Part shown: positions 3,270 through 45,202 of the stretch, one piece after another | How positions within the stretch are numbered: the stretch's first letter is position 1 | Layout of the letters: every line of letters starts with the position of its first letter | From: a virus | Strand: one strand, 5' to 3' | Virus record (IMG/VR): IMGVR_UViG_3300040801_001812 | Coordinates: 1-64,000 of that record | Length of the DNA: 64,000 nt | Notes under the pieces: model-generated | What the model saw: only the letters and a program-made list of their open reading frames with translations | The model's database searches: none | Told to the model about the DNA's origin: nothing | Position numbers and translations under genes: made by a program

Positions 3270-3469
3270 ACCCGCTCATCCCCAACTAGACATACGGCGT
3301 TGTAGTGGCGAAGGTACGACGGAGACTCGTCGTCTCCAACGAACGGGTTACCAACATCCTCCACCCGAGTGAGCTTGAAGTTGTGCGTGATGTTGGCGTC
3401 GGTGTGCAGGAGCACTTCCATCTGTCCATCATACCGATGCAGGATCTCGATCAACTCTTTAACGGTCAT
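3266..3469 (-). CDS. Small phage protein of the KELIEIL..Y type
   Basis: 67 residues from ATG 3469 directly behind GGAGGACAG; an upstream in-frame ATG at 3739 belongs to antisense noise. The start MTVKELIEILHRYDGQMEV and the acidic GDDESPSYLRHYNAVCLV end match a family of small phage proteins known only by sequence. A possible extended -10 (TGTGATATGAT, -10 at 3507-3512) lies just upstream, so it may head a sub-operon. Confidence 0.75.
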   Translation of the reverse strand: MTVKELIEILHRYDGQMEVLLHTDANITHNFKLTRVEDVGNPFVGDDESPSYLRHYNAVCLVGDERV

Positions 3470-3512
3470 CTGTCCTCCAATTAAATTCCTCGATGTCGTC
3501 AGGGTTATCATA

Positions 3513-3830
3513 TCACACGCGGTGGTTCCACGCACGACGAGCCATCTCCTGCGCCTTCTCGTGAGCCTCCCCCACGAACTTCCGGTACTCTCCCGTAGCA
3601 GGGGCGCTCGCATCTGCCTCGGCGTAGAGGGCATGAGGAACAAGAAGCCGTGCCCAATCCTCAACCTGCGCGTAGCAGTTCCGACACTGGCACACTGCCG
3701 TGACCTGAAGGGCCTTGGCCGTCTGATCGGCCTCCTCATCGGGGTAGATGTCGATGAACACTTCGCTCACCACGTGGACACCGATATGCTTAGACTCACC
3801 GCAAAACGGACAATGCCTCAACTCAACCAT
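3513..3830 (-). CDS. Lar-like restriction alleviation family protein
   Basis: 105 residues from ATG 3830, preceded by TGGAGGTAAC. It begins MVELRHCPFCGES, has a second pair CQCRNC near residue 50, and ends RRAWNHRV. This CPFCG ... CxxC ... A..WN.R order is that of the Lar family, whose lambdoid members modulate type I restriction in the host; most phage members are uncharacterised. Zinc binding by the four cysteines is likely. Anti-restriction activity is inferred from family only. Confidence 0.7.
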   Translation of the reverse strand: MVELRHCPFCGESKHIGVHVVSEVFIDIYPDEEADQTAKALQVTAVCQCRNCYAQVEDWARLLVPHALYAEADASAPATGEYRKFVGEAHEKAQEMARRAWNHRV

Positions 3831-3831
3831 G

Positions 3832-4002
3832 TTACCTCCAGAGACGCACAAAAATGATGATCAGGATGATGAGCAACAGGACCGCTCCACACCCAGAGTC
3901 GATGAGACCCACCACACCAATAAGCAGGAATATCCCGATAACAACAACGAAAACCTTGAACAACCAGCCGAGGATCTGCCCAATCTGCTCTAGCCAGTTC
4001 AT
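3832..4002 (-). CDS. Small two-helix membrane protein
   Basis: 56 residues, ATG 4000-4002 behind GGAGGTATT, stop TAA at 3832-3834. The sequence has two hydrophobic helices (GWLFKVFVVVIGIFLLIGVV and AVLLLIILIIIFV) separated by a short IDSGCG turn, ending in RLWR. Function unknown; an inner-membrane location is expected. The next gene's ribosome site lies within its last codons. Confidence 0.7.
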   Translation of the reverse strand: MNWLEQIGQILGWLFKVFVVVIGIFLLIGVVGLIDSGCGAVLLLIILIIIFVRLWR

Positions 4003-18344: not shown

Positions 18345-18442
18345 TTTGAGTAACCCTGGTTGGGGATTTGGTGGGTTGGGTTTTGGCTGACTTGGTGGTG
18401 GGGTGTGATGATGAGATGCGGTTGGTCCCCCTTAACGGGGGA
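18345..18442 (-). terminator. Candidate Rho-dependent termination region with hairpin
   Basis: Read on the minus strand, 18345-18415 has almost no G and abundant C (CCAACCCACC-like runs), the composition of a Rho utilisation site. Just before it lies a hairpin with 6-bp stem and TTAAC-type loop (18426-18442) without a T tract. This would end transcription coming out of the TIGR array. On the plus strand the same DNA is G-rich and could form a G-quadruplex, so the call is tentative. Confidence 0.4.
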
Positions 18443-18526: not shown

Positions 18527-19189
18527 TAGGGCACTCGGGGGGCATGTTCTTCGCTGATCTTGGTTCACTCGTCGAAGCTGCTCTTTTGGGACGTTGGTTC
18601 GCTCTATTCATTTGCTCTTCCAAGATCGTGGTTCACTCCTCAACAGGTGCTCTTCCTCTATTATGGTTCACTCCCACGCGCTGCTCTTCGATGTGTGTGG
18701 TCCACTCCGTACCTATGCTCTTCGGATGTGATGGTTCACTCGGTGGTATTGCTATTCACTTGCCGTGGTTCACTCTCTCCAGTCTTGCTCATCGGTCGAT
18801 TTGGTTCACTCTACCATTGTGCTATTCGTAAACCTTGGTTCACTCCGAGGAAGTGCTCTTCCTTTATTGTGGTTCACTCACTGAGGATGCTCTTCAGGGG
18901 TGATGATTCACTCTTGTACATTGCTACTCCCACGTCGGTGGTTCACTCCCGTAGTATGTAATTTCCCAACACAATGGTTCACTCCGGCTGGGTGCTCTTT
19001 TGGTTTTGTGGTTCACTCAGGTATCACGCTCTTCCTCGATTATGGTTCACTTGCCGTGAATGCTCTTCCACTCTACTGGTTCACTCGTCTACCGTGCTCT
19101 TCGCGCTCCGCTGGTTCACTCAAAAGAACTGCTCTACTCGAACCTTGGTTCACTCTTCATTGGTGCTCTACTCAATCCGTGGTTGATGG
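18527..19189 (-). repeat. TIGR-like guide RNA array (about 19 units of 34-36 nt)
   Basis: On the plus strand each unit is TGGTTCACTC, 8 variable nt, TGCTCTTC, 8 variable nt. Units begin at 18561, 18595, 18629, 18664, 18698, 18732, 18766, 18802, 18836, 18870, 18904, 18939, 18975, 19009, 19043, 19077, 19112 and 19146, with degenerate end copies at 18527 and 19180. Most units are 34 nt; a few are 35 or 36. The first repeat has only single-base changes, the second varies more (TGCTATTC, TGCTCATC, TGCTCTAC), and the variable segments differ from unit to unit. The period is not a multiple of three and no frame stays open. Alternation of two repeats with two spacers, the period, and a Nop/IS110-like gene next door match tandem interspaced guide RNA arrays. 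The minus strand, where the repeats read GAGTGAACCA and GAAGAGCA with UGA and GA elements, is the likely guide strand. Confidence 0.8.
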
Positions 19190-20026
19190 TAGCGTGGGCA
19201 CCCACTCACCGATACGCCAGTGGGCGTGTCCTGGGACATGCTCAAGGACGTACGGCACGGGCGGCTCCTGCTTCTTGAGGATACGACATGCTGCGGTATG
19301 GTAGTCAGAGAGGAAGAGCTTCACGACCCACCTACGCGCTCGTGCGTGAATGTGAGCGGGAGGGAGCTTACCCTCGGAGTACCACTTGTATGCCTCTGTG
19401 TCCTTGCCGATCTTGGTTGTGGCGAGCTTGTGCTCGGCTGCTTCCTTGAACGCTCCCTCCTCATTCTTCTTAATGAGTTCATCCTTGTAAGCACGGAAGA
19501 GGTGACCGTACTCGTCGTTGGGGTTATTCTGGACCTTAACGAAGGACTCACCGATCTTATAGCACAGCACCTTAAGGTCAGCATTCCACGGACGCTTCTG
19601 CCCCTTCTCCCATTTGGCTGTTGGGTTGAGGCCAGCGAAGGACCAGATGTGCCCAGCGGTGGGTGCCTTGTCGATGTCAATGTGAGCGATCAGTCCAGCG
19701 GCAATAACGGGACCGATGCCTGTCACCTCACGCACGGCTGCTCCCAGAGGATGGTTGGCTGAGAACTTGTCGAGCGCGGCCTTGATCGAGTTCTCAAGCA
19801 CGACAAGCTGATCGGTATACCACCCATGGAAGACGAACGGCTCGCCTGCGTCTTTCTGTGACCTACCCTGGTTGGCAGCGGCCTTGCGGAACTCCTGAAT
19901 CTGATAGTACTGGTCAACGAGGTACCGTGCCTCGTTCTCCTGCATCTCGGCAGCGGCCTTTCGTTGGTCAGTGGTCAGTTTACGGACGGCAATATCTTCG
20001 GGTGTCGCGAGCTGGGTGCTGTTCAT
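19172..20026 (-). CDS. tas: Tas-like (Nop/IS110-related) RNA-guided DNA-binding protein
   Basis: 284 residues from ATG 20026 behind GGAGGA. The centre, about residues 95-150, has REVTGIGPVIAAGLIAHIDI and IWSFAGLNPTAKWEKGQKRP, the helix-hairpin-helix block of the IS110/IS116/IS902 transposase C-terminal domain, which is related to the Nop domain of box C/D snoRNPs. The N-terminal 90 residues are helical (RKAAAEMQENEARYLVDQYY) and lack the DEDD RuvC-like catalytic domain of IS110. No HNH or RuvC is fused. The gene ends inside the last degenerate repeat of the adjoining array. In TIGR-Tas systems, Nop-domain Tas proteins bind short dual-spacer guide RNAs and direct sequence-specific DNA binding; nuclease-less forms are known. 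A plain IS110 transposase is unlikely because the catalytic half and element ends are missing. Confidence 0.75.
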   Translation of the reverse strand: MNSTQLATPEDIAVRKLTTDQRKAAAEMQENEARYLVDQYYQIQEFRKAAANQGRSQKDAGEPFVFHGWYTDQLVVLENSIKAALDKFSANHPLGAAVREVTGIGPVIAAGLIAHIDIDKAPTAGHIWSFAGLNPTAKWEKGQKRPWNADLKVLCYKIGESFVKVQNNPNDEYGHLFRAYKDELIKKNEEGAFKEAAEHKLATTKIGKDTEAYKWYSEGKLPPAHIHARARRWVVKLFLSDYHTAACRILKKQEPPVPYVLEHVPGHAHWRIGEWVPTLPSTTD

Positions 20027-20029
20027 GGA

Positions 20030-20257
20030 TTAGTCCTCCATCCAGATGGTGACGTATGGATTCTTGGGTTTAAGACCGCGTTTAATAAGGCGACCCCGCA
20101 CCCTGCTGCGTTTGACCTTAGACCGGGAGGTCTGTGTTTTTGGCTTTTTTGTGTCGGCAAAATCCAACACCTGACTAGCGGGACGTGGGTGCTCATCAGG
20201 TGCCTTGTCGCCATGGTCATCAGCAAACAGGATACGGGGTCTCCAGCAATCACACAT
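20030..20257 (-). CDS. Small basic hypothetical protein upstream of tas
   Basis: 75 residues from ATG 20257. N-terminal CDCWRPRILFADDHG, then a strongly basic stretch (KTQTSRSKVKRSRVRGRLIK) and the end KNPYVTIWMED. It lies 3 bp before the tas gene in the same direction. Basic charge would suit nucleic-acid binding, but this is inference. Confidence 0.55.
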   Translation of the reverse strand: MCDCWRPRILFADDHGDKAPDEHPRPASQVLDFADTKKPKTQTSRSKVKRSRVRGRLIKRGLKPKNPYVTIWMED

Positions 20258-20262
20258 CGTGG

Positions 20263-20511
20263 TTAGTTGATCGCTTCCTGATCGTCGAACGGGTTCATGT
20301 AGCGCATGAAGAAGCGAGCAGTGAAGGTGAGCGAGGTGAGGACCAGGGCTACTACGAGGCCCTTGGCCCACGACTTGACCAGGAAGCCAAGAACGGGCGA
20401 CTCGATGAAGTCCATGAACTGATCGAAGTACCCAGGCTTGGCGAAGAGATCTTCTTGATCCCCGTAGGTGTCGTACGCTCCCTGGCCAGTTTCAACGTCG
20501 AAGTCTATCAT
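20263..20511 (-). CDS. Small membrane protein
   Basis: 82 residues. Acidic N-terminus, then one hydrophobic helix (WAKGLVVALVLTSLTFTARF, residues about 48-67) and a short tail. Sits two genes upstream of tas in the same transcription unit. Function unknown. Confidence 0.65.
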   Translation of the reverse strand: MIDFDVETGQGAYDTYGDQEDLFAKPGYFDQFMDFIESPVLGFLVKSWAKGLVVALVLTSLTFTARFFMRYMNPFDDQEAIN

Positions 20512-31737: not shown

Positions 31738-33225
31738 TCACATCACGTACTGTTCGTATTCGATCTCACCAGCAAGAACGACCTCCCGTGGCAATTCAAC
31801 CATATCCTTGAAGTTAGCCCCGATATCAGCTCCCACGCTCAGAGGTACGGGCGACTCGTCGAGCAGCCACTCCAGTCCAGGCGGGCGCTCCATGAGCAGG
31901 GTAACCGCAGGAATAACCGTGTTGACCTCTGCGGGCGGCACGCTGAAGATGATCGAATCATGGATGGTACCCAGGATTTTGGTCTGGTATCTGTTCTCGT
32001 GTAGCCACTGCCACACACGCGCAATCCCATAGAGAGTGATGTCAGCCGCTGCGCTCTGCACCGGAGTGTTCACCCCAATACGAGACTCACGGCCATCCTG
32101 TGAGGCAAAACCCTTCAACGTGATCGTGCGCCTGCGCCCGAATAGAGTCGTCACGCTGCCGGTCTGCTCGGCGTAGTCGATCATGTCCTCTCGCCATGCT
32201 GCGAACTGAGGGAAGGTGGCGAAGTAGTCCTCCATAAACTGCTCACCTTCCTCCTCTGTGAGACCAGCCTGTCGCGTGAGGCTAAGAAGGCCCATACCGA
32301 ACATCAGGCCAAAAGTGAAGGTCTTCGCTGCGGACCTCTTGCTCTTGTACTCTCCGTACTTCGGATGGTCGGTGTCAGCCAGCGCCTCAGCCATGTCATC
32401 ATAATCGAGCTTAAAGACTGACGCTGCGACCTGGGTGTGGAAGTCCCTACCCGACTTGAAGAACTCACCCATCTTTTCGTCTTTGGCATACATCCCCGCG
32501 ACCCGGACCTCAACCTGGCTCTGGTCAAGCTCGAACAAGATGTGCCCAGGAAGAGGAACGAACGACCGGCGAACGTCACTGCCAGCCAGACCAAGACCTC
32601 TCTTATCCTTGTCTCGCTTCGGGATCTGCTGAAGGTTGGGGTTCTTACAGGAGAGCCTGCCAGTTGCCGTGCCTCCCGACACACCAGCCGTATCCACGAC
32701 CTTAGCCAAGAAGTAGCTCGGGTGGACGCAGCCAGTGTGGGGAGAGTAGAACTTCAACATCGGTTCCCCGAACGAACTCAGCATCTTCTGGAAGTTACGG
32801 AGCACGAGCAGGTCATCACAGAACTGCACGCCCTCGTCTGCGAAATGCTGTAAGGACTCTCGATCTGTGCTCGGGGCATCAGTGGTTTTAGAACGCTTAA
32901 ATGGTTCCAACGACAGCCCTTTATCAGTCTGGATACCGAACAGGAACGCACCAAGCTGCTTCGTCGAGCCGAGGTTAAACGCCCCCTTACCCTCCAGCGG
33001 GATCTCGTGATGAGCCATGAAGTCCACCAGCTCGGGAGTTCCCATCAGCTTGTCCTTGTATTCGTTGAAGATACGCTCGGCGTCTGAGATGAAGACCCGG
33101 TGCTGCATCGGATCAAAGGGGAAGCCGGTGTCCTCGATCTCGACAAAGGCGTTTACCAACACCCGTTGATAATCTGCGAGCCAACGAAGACTGCCCCCCT
33201 CTGCCGTTGTGTCAAAACCTATCAT
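31738..33225 (-). CDS. Family A DNA polymerase, polymerase domain only
   Basis: 495 residues. Motif A ELDQSQVEVRVAG near 227, motif B RSAAKTFTFGLMFGMGLLS near 305 and motif C TIHDSIIF near 422 are intact. The 3'-5' exonuclease domain that precedes this domain in Pol I is absent; it is encoded separately at 33444-34694. The polymerase is the presumed replicative enzyme. Starts at ATG 33225 behind GAGGGTGAG. Confidence 0.9.
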   Translation of the reverse strand: MIGFDTTAEGGSLRWLADYQRVLVNAFVEIEDTGFPFDPMQHRVFISDAERIFNEYKDKLMGTPELVDFMAHHEIPLEGKGAFNLGSTKQLGAFLFGIQTDKGLSLEPFKRSKTTDAPSTDRESLQHFADEGVQFCDDLLVLRNFQKMLSSFGEPMLKFYSPHTGCVHPSYFLAKVVDTAGVSGGTATGRLSCKNPNLQQIPKRDKDKRGLGLAGSDVRRSFVPLPGHILFELDQSQVEVRVAGMYAKDEKMGEFFKSGRDFHTQVAASVFKLDYDDMAEALADTDHPKYGEYKSKRSAAKTFTFGLMFGMGLLSLTRQAGLTEEEGEQFMEDYFATFPQFAAWREDMIDYAEQTGSVTTLFGRRRTITLKGFASQDGRESRIGVNTPVQSAAADITLYGIARVWQWLHENRYQTKILGTIHDSIIFSVPPAEVNTVIPAVTLLMERPPGLEWLLDESPVPLSVGADIGANFKDMVELPREVVLAGEIEYEQYVM

Positions 33226-33240
33226 AGCCTACTCACCCTC

Positions 33241-33447
33241 TCACGCACAGTATAGCGGGATATCGATGAGCTTAGTCAGCAGAGCACATGCAGCAAGATT
33301 CTGGTCCTCTTCACTCTTACCGTGAGTGGCTAAGTAGGCTAGCACGTCTTCCCACAAATCATCCCTCTCAGCGTGTGCCGCCTCATAGTCTGTTTTTGCC
33401 AAAGACCTGATCCTGGCTATTCTATCGCCAATATCTTTAGGTGTCAT
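33241..33447 (-). CDS. Small hypothetical protein between exonuclease and polymerase
   Basis: 68 residues, helical (DYEAAHAERDDLWEDVLAYL). Overlaps the exonuclease stop by 4 bp. Its position inside the split polymerase operon suggests a replication accessory role, but nothing in the sequence shows one. Confidence 0.6.
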   Translation of the reverse strand: MTPKDIGDRIARIRSLAKTDYEAAHAERDDLWEDVLAYLATHGKSEEDQNLAACALLTKLIDIPLYCA

Positions 33448-34694
33448 GGGGCCTTAACCTCCTGCATAGCATCGCTGTGGAACGCCTCCCTGAACAGATG
33501 GCGCGTGACCACGATGTCCAAACAGCCGTAGGTGGTGAGTAGCTCGGGTGGCGCGTCATACGTCCCGTGCTCCTCGAAGTAGTCGTCCATTTTCTTCTCG
33601 TACCCGCCCAAGTCAGTGATCTGGTAGGCGATCTCCTTCAACGACAGCGGGGACTCCCCATGGATGTTCGCCCACAGCATCATAGTGTCTCGGTCGAGCA
33701 TACATTTGTCAACCCCAATTCTCCTAAGTCCTTTGAGGTCATACTTTCCGTTATGCGCGACGATCTTGAAGTACCGAGGGTGGAGCAGCTCGTTGAGCAT
33801 ATCCCGCATCTTACCCAGCCAGTTTGGGTCCGATCCGCCTGACCAGTGCTCGGACTGAAGGGGAAGAAGGTAGACGGGGTTGGTGTCGTTGGGGCTATTG
33901 GGTCCGCTTCCTTCGAGATCAACGATACCGAACTGGATACAGTAGACCTTGAAGTCGGCAGTGTACATCTCATCGTCCAGGGAAGAAGCCTCGATGTCGA
34001 TGGCGAGGTACTCACCCTTATGATCCCTGGTAAGCAGGCGTGCTACCTCCTTGAATTGGCGTGCGCTCTCGATCACGCGGAAGTCGAAGCGGTCCATCTT
34101 GGAGTCGTCCCAGTACGGCGAGCCTTCACTGGAGAAGACTGCCTTGGCACGACGGATGTCGGCTACCCAAGGATCCAACTTCGAGGGGGTGGATAGAACA
34201 GAGAAGGGGTGGTCTATTGCCATCACCTGCGCGGACCAGCCGTCTCCCTCGAACTCCTGCAACTTACCGTGCGTCTTAGCGATAGAGGCGTTGTTGCGGG
34301 TCACGGCGATCTGGGCGTTCTTCCCGAGCACGATGATAAGACGGGGCTTAAAACGGTTCAGCTCCTCCATCAAGTACCGGTCGGCGCACGTTTTCATGTC
34401 CTTCACCTTGATTTTGCCAGCCGGGTAGCACTTCACGGCGTTGGTAGCGAAAACGTCTCCGGTATTTCCGACAGAGAAACCCGCGTCCTTAAGAGCTTCG
34501 ATCACCAGCCTCCCCTGCTCATCAGCGAAGGAGAAGCCTCGCGGTGCCTCATCACGCGAGGGAGCGTCACCCACTATGACAACTCCCCCAGTTTTGTTCA
34601 GGTTGCCCCGACCCGAGATGCAGGTCACACCGTCCGTCTCGTGCAGTGGGCAGAGCGAGCAAGACCTGTTGTAGATTCCCTTCAGAAGACTCAT
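33444..34694 (-). CDS. Uracil-DNA glycosylase fused to a 3'-5' exonuclease
   Basis: 416 residues. The N-terminal 190 residues resemble family 4/5 UDG: cysteines 12, 15, 89 and 103 fit the [4Fe-4S] set, with GDAPSRDEAPRGFSF, IIVLGKNAQIAV and DHPFSVLSTPSK. The usual GEAPG..ED motif is altered. The C-terminal part is a DnaQ-type exonuclease: LAIDIEASSLD near 233, VAHNGKYDLKGL, and YGCLDIVVTRHLF. It would remove uracil and proofread for the polymerase encoded downstream. SPO1-type phage polymerases carry a similar UDG-exonuclease region in one chain. The ATG follows the -10 by only 6 nt, so the mRNA may be leaderless. Confidence 0.85.
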   Translation of the reverse strand: MSLLKGIYNRSCSLCPLHETDGVTCISGRGNLNKTGGVVIVGDAPSRDEAPRGFSFADEQGRLVIEALKDAGFSVGNTGDVFATNAVKCYPAGKIKVKDMKTCADRYLMEELNRFKPRLIIVLGKNAQIAVTRNNASIAKTHGKLQEFEGDGWSAQVMAIDHPFSVLSTPSKLDPWVADIRRAKAVFSSEGSPYWDDSKMDRFDFRVIESARQFKEVARLLTRDHKGEYLAIDIEASSLDDEMYTADFKVYCIQFGIVDLEGSGPNSPNDTNPVYLLPLQSEHWSGGSDPNWLGKMRDMLNELLHPRYFKIVAHNGKYDLKGLRRIGVDKCMLDRDTMMLWANIHGESPLSLKEIAYQITDLGGYEKKMDDYFEEHGTYDAPPELLTTYGCLDIVVTRHLFREAFHSDAMQEVKAP

Positions 34695-41054: not shown

Positions 41055-43670
41055 CTATTCGGACAGTCGGTCGATGAGGCCCAAGAGCTTCTCCTGAATG
41101 TAGAGAGGAGCTGTCAGCTCCGTACCGTGCCCCGGAGGGAACATGGAGAGCAGCTCGTACGTGTTGTAGTAGTGCTTCACACCCTCGTCGCCCAGCCCGA
41201 GACCACCAATGTGAATCCCAGCCAATTCGATACGGCGGATGGCGTACTTCAAGAACCGAGACTGGAGATTCGGGTTACCGGCATACGGCAGACCGTCCGA
41301 CAGCACGATCATGACCTTCCGGTCTTCCTCACGTGCGATGATACGGCTCGCCGCCCAAAGGAGGGACTCACCGTCCGAGTTGGTATGCGGCTGGATGTTC
41401 TGTCCCTTGTAGGTGATGTTGGTGTGCTGGTTCATGGCGATCATCTGCGGCTCGGAACTCGTCCACGGATCGTCGAAGTCCTTGAAGAGGAAATTGACGA
41501 TGTCGAAGCAACGAGAGTAGTCCCGCGAATAACTGCCCCAACCAAGGCCAGGGATGTCCTTGGTGGTGTAGCCCATCACCGAGAACGGCACCTTGATCGT
41601 CTGAAGCAGACGAGCAATCGAACGGGCAGCAGCGTGAGCCACGGCGAACTTCGTGGCCCACTGCTCGTTCTGCCTCTGGAACATGAGTCCATTGATATGC
41701 GACTCCATAGACCCAGAGCAATCAATACAGAGCTGAACCACGACACCGTGACGGCTGGTCACTGTCTCGTTCCTACGGAGATAAAGTGGGCGACCGTGTG
41801 CCTTACCAGCCTTGATAGGCTGAAGCATCCGAGGGTTGACCCGGTTACCAGACCATGCCTTACCCGGTGCGCCCTGGAACTTCCCAACCAGCTTACGAGC
41901 AGCGGGACCGAGGGACGAGGGCATAAGCGTCCGGATAAAATTATCGTAGCGGGTGAAGATCGTGCTCTCGCCGATGAGAGCATTGAGGTCCAGACCCGCG
42001 ATGACGTGCGTAGCACACCCTGGTGTAAGTTTATCCAAGTACTCATCGGGCATACCCATGATGTCCTTGGCGTGCTCAATGACCGGAGAAGCACCACCGG
42101 AACTGTTGCCCCCACCAGGGGCAGCGGGGCTGTCGGAGGGGTCACCCTCTTCATCCAGGCCCCCGCCCTCGCGCATCAGCTCAGACATGTCAACCTTGGC
42201 GTCATCTACCCAGTCCATCACCTGATCGAGCGCGGCATTCCGCTTGTCGGTAGAATCAGACGCCTGACCTTCCTGGCCAGCCCCTCGGGAATCGCCTACG
42301 GCGTCTTCATCGTCGGCGTCCTCGCTACCTGAAGAAGACTCTCCGTGAGAGCTTCCGTTCGAGTGTCCTGGAGCCGGATCATCTCCTCCGGTCTCATCAG
42401 TGTCACCCGCTCCTGAGCCTCCTCCAGAGCATTGATCACCGTCCTCGCCATCAGATTCGGAAGATCCGTCTTCTTCATCATCGTCGCAATCGTCTCCGTC
42501 CAGAGGATCATCTCCTTCGTCGTCTTCGTCATCCTCGTCGTCGCGTCCTGCGCCTCCAGAGTCAGAGTCTTGTTCCTCCTCATCGTCTTCTCCAGAGCCG
42601 CCTGAAGGATCCTGATCCTCATCTGATCCCTCATCTTCGTCGAAGGGATCAAACTCGCCATCGTCATCTTCAGGTTCGTCATCGTCATCGTGATCGAATT
42701 CATCGTCGTCCTCGTCCTCCTCCTCATCATCGCGGTAGTCGTCGTACTTCGACTCCTGAGGGGTATCGCTGGGGGTAAAGTCGTCATCGAAGGGACTGAA
42801 CCCATTGCTGTCGCCCTGGCTCTGGTCCTCCGGTTGCTGCTGGCCTTCACCCTCACCGTCCTCGCCCTGTTCCTCATCGTCCTCCTGGGGAGCGTTGAGG
42901 TCGGGAAGAACCTTGTCAAGGATGCGGGTCATCGCCTCGTCGGTCAAACGACCCAGCTCTTCAGACGACATGGCGCAGACATCCGTGATGTCACCAAAGA
43001 CATCATCCGCAACATCACAAGCCCACTCAACGTGATCCGGAACCTGCGTACGGACGTAGTTCCGGTCCCGTGTGCCGTGCGTCCCACCAAGAAGGTGGTG
43101 CGCGTGCATCTCACAGACCCAGAAGGGGCTAAGCGGGATCTTATCCTGACCCCGCTCTTCTGCGAGATCCTTAGCCTGCTCGATGGTATCGACCACGAGC
43201 GTGTCGCACCCAGCGGCAATCGGACCACCGATGAAGTGCTTCTTCGAGCCAGGGAACTTGCGGACCATGAGTTGCTCAATCCGAGCGTCCTCAAGGAGGT
43301 TATGGAAGAACTTAGCCGCTTCGAGGATCTTGTCGGGCAGACCCCCGTAGCCACGCTCTTCGCACAGTTCCTTCATCTTGCTGTTATTGACGAAATCCCT
43401 GATCATAGGCTGAAGGGAAGGCGTGTAGATCAGGTGACCGGCCTCGTGGTCAACGTGCCACGAGACAATCAAGAGTGCTCGTGCGGACTTCACCGAGGAG
43501 GGAAGAACGATTTTCTTCTCCTCCATGACCGCATAGGGGTAAGGGGTGTTGGGGTCGATCACGACGGTGACACCGCAATCGGCCATGCCTGTCGCCACAC
43601 CCTGAAGAACCTGAGCGGTGGGAATCTTATCCCCAAACAAATCACGTAAGTGTTTAACACTCAGGCTCAT
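41055..43670 (-). CDS. CobT-like protein with metallopeptidase motif and VWA domain
   Basis: 871 residues. Near residue 75 is HEAGH, an HExxH zinc motif in WHVDHEAGHLIYTP, followed by FHNLLEDARIEQL, as in CobT-like and MoxR-partner metallopeptidase/VWA proteins. Residues about 260-480 are extremely acidic (Asp/Glu/Ser runs). The C-terminal VWA domain has an intact MIDAS motif, DCSGSMESH near 653, with a later VLSDGLPY. Such proteins work with a MoxR AAA+ ATPase in metal-chelatase-like or protein-remodelling machines. Its first 17 bp overlap the HNH gene, which supplies its GGAGG ribosome site. Confidence 0.8.
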   Translation of the reverse strand: MSLSVKHLRDLFGDKIPTAQVLQGVATGMADCGVTVVIDPNTPYPYAVMEEKKIVLPSSVKSARALLIVSWHVDHEAGHLIYTPSLQPMIRDFVNNSKMKELCEERGYGGLPDKILEAAKFFHNLLEDARIEQLMVRKFPGSKKHFIGGPIAAGCDTLVVDTIEQAKDLAEERGQDKIPLSPFWVCEMHAHHLLGGTHGTRDRNYVRTQVPDHVEWACDVADDVFGDITDVCAMSSEELGRLTDEAMTRILDKVLPDLNAPQEDDEEQGEDGEGEGQQQPEDQSQGDSNGFSPFDDDFTPSDTPQESKYDDYRDDEEEDEDDDEFDHDDDDEPEDDDGEFDPFDEDEGSDEDQDPSGGSGEDDEEEQDSDSGGAGRDDEDDEDDEGDDPLDGDDCDDDEEDGSSESDGEDGDQCSGGGSGAGDTDETGGDDPAPGHSNGSSHGESSSGSEDADDEDAVGDSRGAGQEGQASDSTDKRNAALDQVMDWVDDAKVDMSELMREGGGLDEEGDPSDSPAAPGGGNSSGGASPVIEHAKDIMGMPDEYLDKLTPGCATHVIAGLDLNALIGESTIFTRYDNFIRTLMPSSLGPAARKLVGKFQGAPGKAWSGNRVNPRMLQPIKAGKAHGRPLYLRRNETVTSRHGVVVQLCIDCSGSMESHINGLMFQRQNEQWATKFAVAHAAARSIARLLQTIKVPFSVMGYTTKDIPGLGWGSYSRDYSRCFDIVNFLFKDFDDPWTSSEPQMIAMNQHTNITYKGQNIQPHTNSDGESLLWAASRIIAREEDRKVMIVLSDGLPYAGNPNLQSRFLKYAIRRIELAGIHIGGLGLGDEGVKHYYNTYELLSMFPPGHGTELTAPLYIQEKLLGLIDRLSE

Positions 43671-44221: not shown

Positions 44222-45202
44222 CTAAGCGTTCGCCTTTCGTGCCGGGTCGGCCAGAGCCTGCCTGTCGGCCAGCTCTTCCACAACGACCTTGTCCTTGTCG
44301 GTCGGGAGCTTCTGGAGGATGGTAGCCTCCAATGCCTGCGGCCCGAGGATCTGGAAGTACTTCGCGAAGTGAAGCACCATCCTAACGGACAGCGGAGCCG
44401 TCAGTTCATCCTGCCTCCACGCTGACAGCGTGGAATCGTAGAAGTTGACCACGGCTTCGACAAACTCGTCCTTGAGCTTGCGACCGCTGAACTCCACCTT
44501 AGAGAGAATCACTTTCATGTTCTTCGCGGGCAGCGGGTTCATCGGAAGAACGAGGTGGAACCTGTTGAGCTGGGCGAAGTTCTGCGAACCCGTACCAGCG
44601 TACAGCCCAGTGTCGTCACCCAACCCTCTGGTGTTGGCTGTTGCCACCACGATGCAGTCGGGGTGCCGGGGGATGAACTCATCCCTCTCTGAGAGGAAGA
44701 GACCGGGGTCGTGGTCCTCAAGAAGCCTCTGAAGGCCGATAGCCATCTCAGCCCTTGCGGCGTCCCACTCATCCAACACCACCAAACCGGGGCGTTGGAT
44801 CGCGTTGACGAGAGCCGTCCACTTCCAGCCATCGTCGTCCGGGTCGTTCTCGTTGATGAGACCGAAGTACCCGAACACCTCCGGTGAGCCAAGCTCACCA
44901 TGGAAGTTGATCCTGGTGACGGGAAGGTGGAGCTTCGCAGCCAACTGGGTCGGCAACATGGTCTTGCCAACCCCGGTCGGCCCCACCAAGAGGGCGTTGT
45001 CCCTCTCCTGAAGAACCAGGAGGAGGGAGATCACGTGCTCGGACGGGAACCTGTAGTACGGGTCCACGGCGGGCACAAGAGACCGGAGTCTCACATCCTC
45101 GGGGTCGCTCTCATCGAACGATCCCACGGGGATCTGGAGTTTCGCTGCGTTCTTCTTGAGAGCCTTGAAGACGGTGCCAGCGGCTACGGTTTTGACTTCC
45201 AC
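44222..45202 (-). CDS. MoxR/CobS-like AAA+ ATPase
   Basis: 326 residues from GTG 45202, 6 nt after AGGAG. Walker A GPTGVGKT (74-81), Walker B LVVLDEWD (139-146), and a MoxR-style GELGSPEVFGYFG between them, with a sensor segment IVVATANTRGLGDD. MoxR ATPases pair with VWA proteins encoded next to them. Here the partner is at 41055-43670. Promoter at 45231-45259. Confidence 0.88.
   Translation of the reverse strand: MEVKTVAAGTVFKALKKNAAKLQIPVGSFDESDPEDVRLRSLVPAVDPYYRFPSEHVISLLLVLQERDNALLVGPTGVGKTMLPTQLAAKLHLPVTRINFHGELGSPEVFGYFGLINENDPDDDGWKWTALVNAIQRPGLVVLDEWDAARAEMAIGLQRLLEDHDPGLFLSERDEFIPRHPDCIVVATANTRGLGDDTGLYAGTGSQNFAQLNRFHLVLPMNPLPAKNMKVILSKVEFSGRKLKDEFVEAVVNFYDSTLSAWRQDELTAPLSVRMVLHFAKYFQILGPQALEATILQKLPTDKDKVVVEELADRQALADPARKANA

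Follow-up and report, generated by a model that had tools for sequence, protein, structure and literature searches.

A TIGR-TasA-type locus with a 34-nt dual-spacer unit in a phage genome

TIGR loci are already known in phages, and TasA with 36-nt RNAs has already been published (PMC12045711). In the TIGR-TasA system of Flavonifractor plautii, FpTIGR, a solo Nop-domain protein adjoins a dual-repeat array (Faure et al. 2025, PMC12045711), and the same arrangement is seen in the locus described here. TasA is the commonest and the least understood Tas type. The locus lies in a stretch of 64,000 nucleotides, positions 1 to 64,000 of IMG/VR record IMGVR_UViG_3300040801_001812, which we call the window. 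We put the probability that it is a TIGR-TasA system at roughly 0.93.

The source record of 139,526 bases encodes tail sheath and baseplate genes together with DNA polymerase, SbcCD-like proteins, a DnaB-like helicase and RecA, and we therefore regard it as a myophage. A search with the stretch 25000-49999 found no near relative among deposited phages, and a search of IMG/VR with the phage's SbcC protein found no close relative for an empty-site comparison. Two further features of the window are recorded for completeness. A CobT-like VWA-domain protein (41055-43670, minus strand, PF11775) is encoded near an AAA ATPase (44222-45202, minus strand, PF07728), the two forming a CobS/CobT-like pair. 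Homology to DNA polymerase (phrog_17) is split over the minus-strand frames 31738-33225 and 33444-34694, 218 bases apart; these could be distinct genes, or an inserted element may divide one.

A solo Nop-domain protein and its array

The initial annotation proposed a TIGR-Tas system of the nuclease-less kind in a phage, and that identification stands on the NCBIfam match, the TasH/TasR fold, the lack of an HNH or RuvC match, the anatomy of the array and the arrays of the homologues. The 284-aa protein scores 200.5 bits against the NCBIfam model TIGR_Tas_endo (NF052498, cut-off 100). By sequence it matches TasR (1.1e-13), deposited as PDB 9MTY (PMC12045711), and TasH (1.6e-10). A profile of 32 family members strengthens these matches to 2e-24 and 4e-16, respectively, and aligns solely to the Nop part of each protein. 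The predicted structure (mean pLDDT 85, pTM 0.81) is related to Nop proteins, as the fold check called for initially was meant to establish: the best PDB matches in Foldseek are TasH (21kl) and TasR (9mty), with E values of 2e-7 to 4e-4, and the IS110 recombinases IS621 and ISCro4 rank behind them. No HNH or RuvC nuclease was matched in Pfam or NCBIfam, and the short N-terminal part leaves no room for a nuclease domain. Because the nuclease domain is absent, the protein is TasA, the solo Nop form, and the word "endonuclease" in the NCBIfam name is a family label. Searches with Rfam and PADLOC returned no match.

Table 1. Features of the TIGR-TasA-type locus, in window coordinates.
Feature	Position	Strand	Source
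Small open reading frame ending 3 nt before tasA	20030..20371	-	ORF list
tasA, encoding a solo Nop-domain Tas protein of 284 aa; residues 97-137 form a helix-hairpin-helix block	19172..20026	-	NCBIfam, Foldseek, Pfam
TIGR array, 19 dual-spacer units	18532..19184 (5' to 3' from 19184 down to 18532)	-	Unit parse; strand by homologous arrays
5' half edge repeat AACCA, array start, inside tasA coding end	19180..19184	-	Sequence
Spacer A of unit 1, CGGATTGA, gives tasA TGA stop	19172..19179	-	Sequence
3' half edge repeat GAGTG, closing the array	18532..18536	-	Sequence
G+C hairpin about 90 nt past array end, possible transcript end	18426..18441		Terminator-like scan

Parsed unit by unit in the sense of the gene, the array (Table 1) contains exactly 19 units, each reading 5' to 3' as edge repeat GAGTGAACCA, spacer A, loop repeat GAAGAGCA and spacer B. 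The first reading, of about 19 units with repeats of 10 and 8 nt, 8-nt spacers and a period of 34-36 nt, is thereby made exact, and its bounds of 18527-19189 are corrected to 18532-19184 with the minus strand as the sense strand. The strand follows from the homologous arrays, which have the same orientation as their tas genes; the coding strand of one of them, L002, carries the identical edge repeat GAGTGAACCA. The 10-nt edge repeat, which reads TGGTTCACTC on the plus strand, is present in 18 full copies spanning 18561 to 19155, and 14 of the 18 are exactly GAGTGAACCA. Their spacing is 34 nt in 12 cases, 35 nt in three and 36 nt in two, giving a modal unit of 34 nt. The 8-nt loop repeat is more variable, with the consensus GAAGAGCA exact in 8 of 19 units and the others mostly one base off; the loop of unit 7, at 9 nt, is odd among the units. 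Spacer A is 8 nt long in 16 of the 19 units and spacer B in 18. These sizes agree with TIGR arrays in general, where the two repeats measure 8-12 nt and the spacers about 9 nt, or 8 nt in SpTIGR. Both kinds of repeat have GA...CA ends, which are box C/D-like. The 5'-truncated edge repeat at the array start is typical of TIGR arrays (PMC12045711), which commonly have truncated edge repeats at both ends, as here. From this anatomy a guide of 34 nt is predicted, compared with the published length of about 36 nt, and the 36 nt assumed at the outset is replaced by that value.

The regularity of the array exceeds that of shuffled sequence. Over a stretch of five units, 19 columns are conserved at the window locus (L007) versus 9 in its shuffle, and the top periodic-conservation score among 88 shuffled loci was 13 columns. 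No copy of the edge repeat, exact or with one mismatch, is found outside the array within the 64-kb window. The array is absent from the output of Tandem Repeats Finder, as expected of repeats so short and interrupted. A CRISPR array, which has near-identical repeats of about 25-36 nt with long spacers between them and cas genes, was considered and rejected, since here the repeats are 10 and 8 nt, the spacers are 8 nt and the adjoining gene encodes Tas and is not a cas gene.

Spacer A of unit 1 contains the stop codon of tasA, and the 3' end of the gene and the array therefore overlap by 13 nt. The small frame upstream, for which no match was found in Pfam or PHROG, probably belongs to the same transcription unit as tasA; since it ends 3 nt before the gene, it is likely that one transcript carries gene and array. 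No intrinsic terminator by consensus was found downstream of the array on the minus strand. The hairpin past the array end is reported by the terminator-like scan on the plus strand only and lacks a T-run on the minus strand. TIGR-Tas arrays are typically followed by a Rho-independent terminator, a feature that is not defining.

Arrays of the wider family

A scan from the single sequence found six relatives. With a profile built from the alignment, relatives were found to be encoded in 526 IMG/VR stretches, and 80 of these were fetched. Dual-repeat arrays could be parsed at 74 loci, the window included, with 1,228 units in all; these counts include near-duplicates and are uncorrected for the parser's mixing up of edge and loop where the two differ by two bases (L025, L035 and L042). 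A dual-repeat array, oriented like the gene, adjoins most of the fetched homologous genes on their upstream or downstream side. Edge and loop repeats of the family arrays have GA...CA ends in common. Arrays thus stand beside dozens of homologous genes, in line with what the initial annotation would require of a genuine system. The period is 36 nt nearly throughout the parsed loci, the exceptions being L031 (35 nt), L086 (37 nt), and the window and L041, both with 34 nt. The L041 array (3414-3954), with a 34-nt unit and the loop GAACATCA, is the sole parsed locus that matches the period of the window. In a tree of 32 members these two 34-nt loci fall apart, with weak support near the window (0.49-0.84), and the short loop therefore probably arose more than once.

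Distant relatives are encoded by Mycobacterium phage Euphoria (L012) and Gordonia phage Morrissey (L013), where they are annotated as hypothetical protein or transposase; no regular dual-repeat array was seen at either locus. Upstream of the Morrissey gene (L013, 2629-2951) are irregular GACCA...ACCCA repeats, which may be a TIGR array of the stem-loop type. A TasA that is 54% identical is encoded on a Bryobacterales MAG contig (L014, 6001-6756), and no array was detected within 3 kb of it. A search of plasmids returned nothing.

The edge repeats of the family preserve a stem. Ten distinct edge repeats share the form GA-XY-GA-Y'X'-CA, in which XY pairs with Y'X' in an inner stem of two pairs, and departures from it fall at fixed positions (central GG and end G in L003, end G in L058, start GT in L072). 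All 20 cells of the inner stem are paired (100%), 8 of them changed on both sides; none of 500 shuffles was as high, and slid versions reached at most 60%. Loop repeats are paired in 54.5% of cells, a contrast that is favoured by construction because the parser told edge from loop partly by this same inner pairing. Judged from sequence, edge-stem covariation of the kind published for TasR is also present in the TasA clade.

Sister arrays (L063/L080/L064/L078, L092/L094 and L039/L065/L071) have whole A-B units in common, in the same order, and differ by internal gain or loss of units and by occasional single-base changes in spacers. There is no sign among them of polarised, one-ended growth. 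The sharing of whole units indicates that the unit behaves as one module, which fits one unit giving one guide.

The search for natural targets

In the published TIGR system, the two spacers of a guide pair with different target strands, A with one and B with the other, at a gap of 0-2 (PMC12045711). Our own derivation from 8-nt 3' overhangs gives a target layout of B, gap and reverse complement of A, and both layouts were searched. The 19 spacer pairs of the window have no match in the phage's own 139.5 kb at up to one mismatch in either layout, and with two mismatches there are 4-5 matches versus about 5 for shuffled pairings. When 1,013 distinct family pairs were compared with 0.8 Mb, there was a slight excess at gap 2; it was rejected because it was gone against 2.25 Mb of contigs from TasA phages. 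Against this 2.25 Mb, about 1,000 family pairs gave as many exact and one-mismatch matches as shuffled controls did at every gap, and the family had no exact self-target. The silencing of host or rival-phage genes that had been suggested for the locus is therefore not confirmed by the spacer-pair search in phage genomes, which stayed at the level of chance.

One conserved pair provides a lead. The pair GAAAGTCG/GCGTTCAA is retained in L025, L035 and L042, three arrays that differ in other respects. When conserved pairs were scanned through IMG/VR with a reversed-layout control, and with the mixing up of edge and loop corrected for this pair, it was found in the expected layout with a 1-nt gap at the start of one gene in 29 contigs (L216 and 28 further loci). 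The product of that gene begins MATPMRSTDFRSIVEPILNE and is capsid-like in our own reading, made without comparison to a family model. The biggest gene cluster in the other four scans of the collection had 9 members, versus 29 here, and no other conserved pair scanned in IMG/VR gave a comparable cluster. The other spacers of the three arrays have no match in the phages with the capsid-like gene. Because these sibling spacers miss the same phages and other pairs lack such a cluster, we treat the match as a lead only; it is possible that the matches are chance hits to one well-sampled gene family. It would be a bold and rather improbable conclusion that the family's TasA guides are aimed at the starts of structural genes in other phages and silence rivals without cutting.

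Function, alternatives and comparison with described systems

A mechanism can be proposed by analogy with the characterised TasA, TasR and TasH, from which guide processing, DNA binding and the absence of cleavage are carried over. The minus-strand transcript would contain tasA first and then the array. Dimers of TasA would bind the box C/D-like GA...CA ends of the edge and loop repeats, and a host RNase would cleave each edge repeat halfway along. This would yield as many as 19 guides, each about 34 nt long, with half an edge repeat at either end and spacer A, the loop and spacer B between them in that order. That such guides silence host or rival genes is plausible, and the most likely role is a block to transcription or replication, directed at host genes or at a competing element.

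It is very unlikely that the guides act instead on RNA or on the phage's own genes, in a snoRNA-like or autoregulatory manner. The Nop fold is found in box C/D snoRNPs as well (PMC12045711), TasA has no catalytic domain and the target searches found no foreign DNA targets, all of which would suit such a role, yet the phage's own genome holds no paired target at up to one mismatch, its two-mismatch count equals that of shuffled pairings, and the family has no excess of self-targets. Less probable still is a decayed locus that has gone out of use. The variable loop repeats and the odd loop of unit 7 could be taken as signs of decay, but the 284-aa frame is intact, is 39-57% identical to its relatives and keeps the family's invariant residues, the edge repeats are mostly exact and half edges are retained at both ends.

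The least probable reading is an IS110-family transposase, or its remnant, with a bridge RNA. Labels of this kind come from Pfam Transposase_20, whose match is confined to residues 97-137, and from PHROG 4285, and relatives are annotated likewise; a Nop/RNA-binding fold is also common to IS621, ISCro4 and the window protein. However, the IS110 model of NCBIfam (NF033542) gives the protein 28.8 bits against a cut-off of 140, whereas the TIGR-Tas model passes. With 284 aa, the protein is without the N-terminal DEDD/RuvC-like domain of IS110, its gene is accompanied by 19 dual-spacer units and not by a single bridge RNA, and TasH and TasR are closer in fold than the IS110 recombinases.

As a TIGR-TasA system, the locus is of limited novelty: systems of this kind have been described before (PMC12045711, 2025) and are found very commonly in phages, and only the 34-nt unit is new. 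The understanding of TIGR-Tas is unchanged by it; a natural target would change that understanding. What the locus provides is a clean, self-contained example of TasA in a myophage. The 34-nt unit with an 8-nt loop is shown to exist, in two loci, and the family survey of 1,228 units can be used by others.

Among described systems, the IS110 recombinases IS621 and ISCro4 have in common with the window protein an RNA-binding Nop-like domain, and differ in having a DEDD catalytic domain and a single bridge RNA. TasR resembles the window system in its Nop fold and covarying edge-repeat stem, but its boxes are UG/CCA and it carries a RuvC nuclease, whereas here the boxes are GA/CA and RuvC is lacking. 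TasH of Salicola phage CGphi29 (SpTIGR), the closest fold match in the PDB, is likewise phage-borne with 8-nt spacers but bears an N-terminal HNH nuclease that the window protein lacks. FpTIGR and the window array both have two short spacers per unit and half edges at both ends; FpTIGR has 9-nt spacers and a 36-nt unit, whereas the window array combines 8-nt spacers and an 8-nt loop in a unit of 34 nt.
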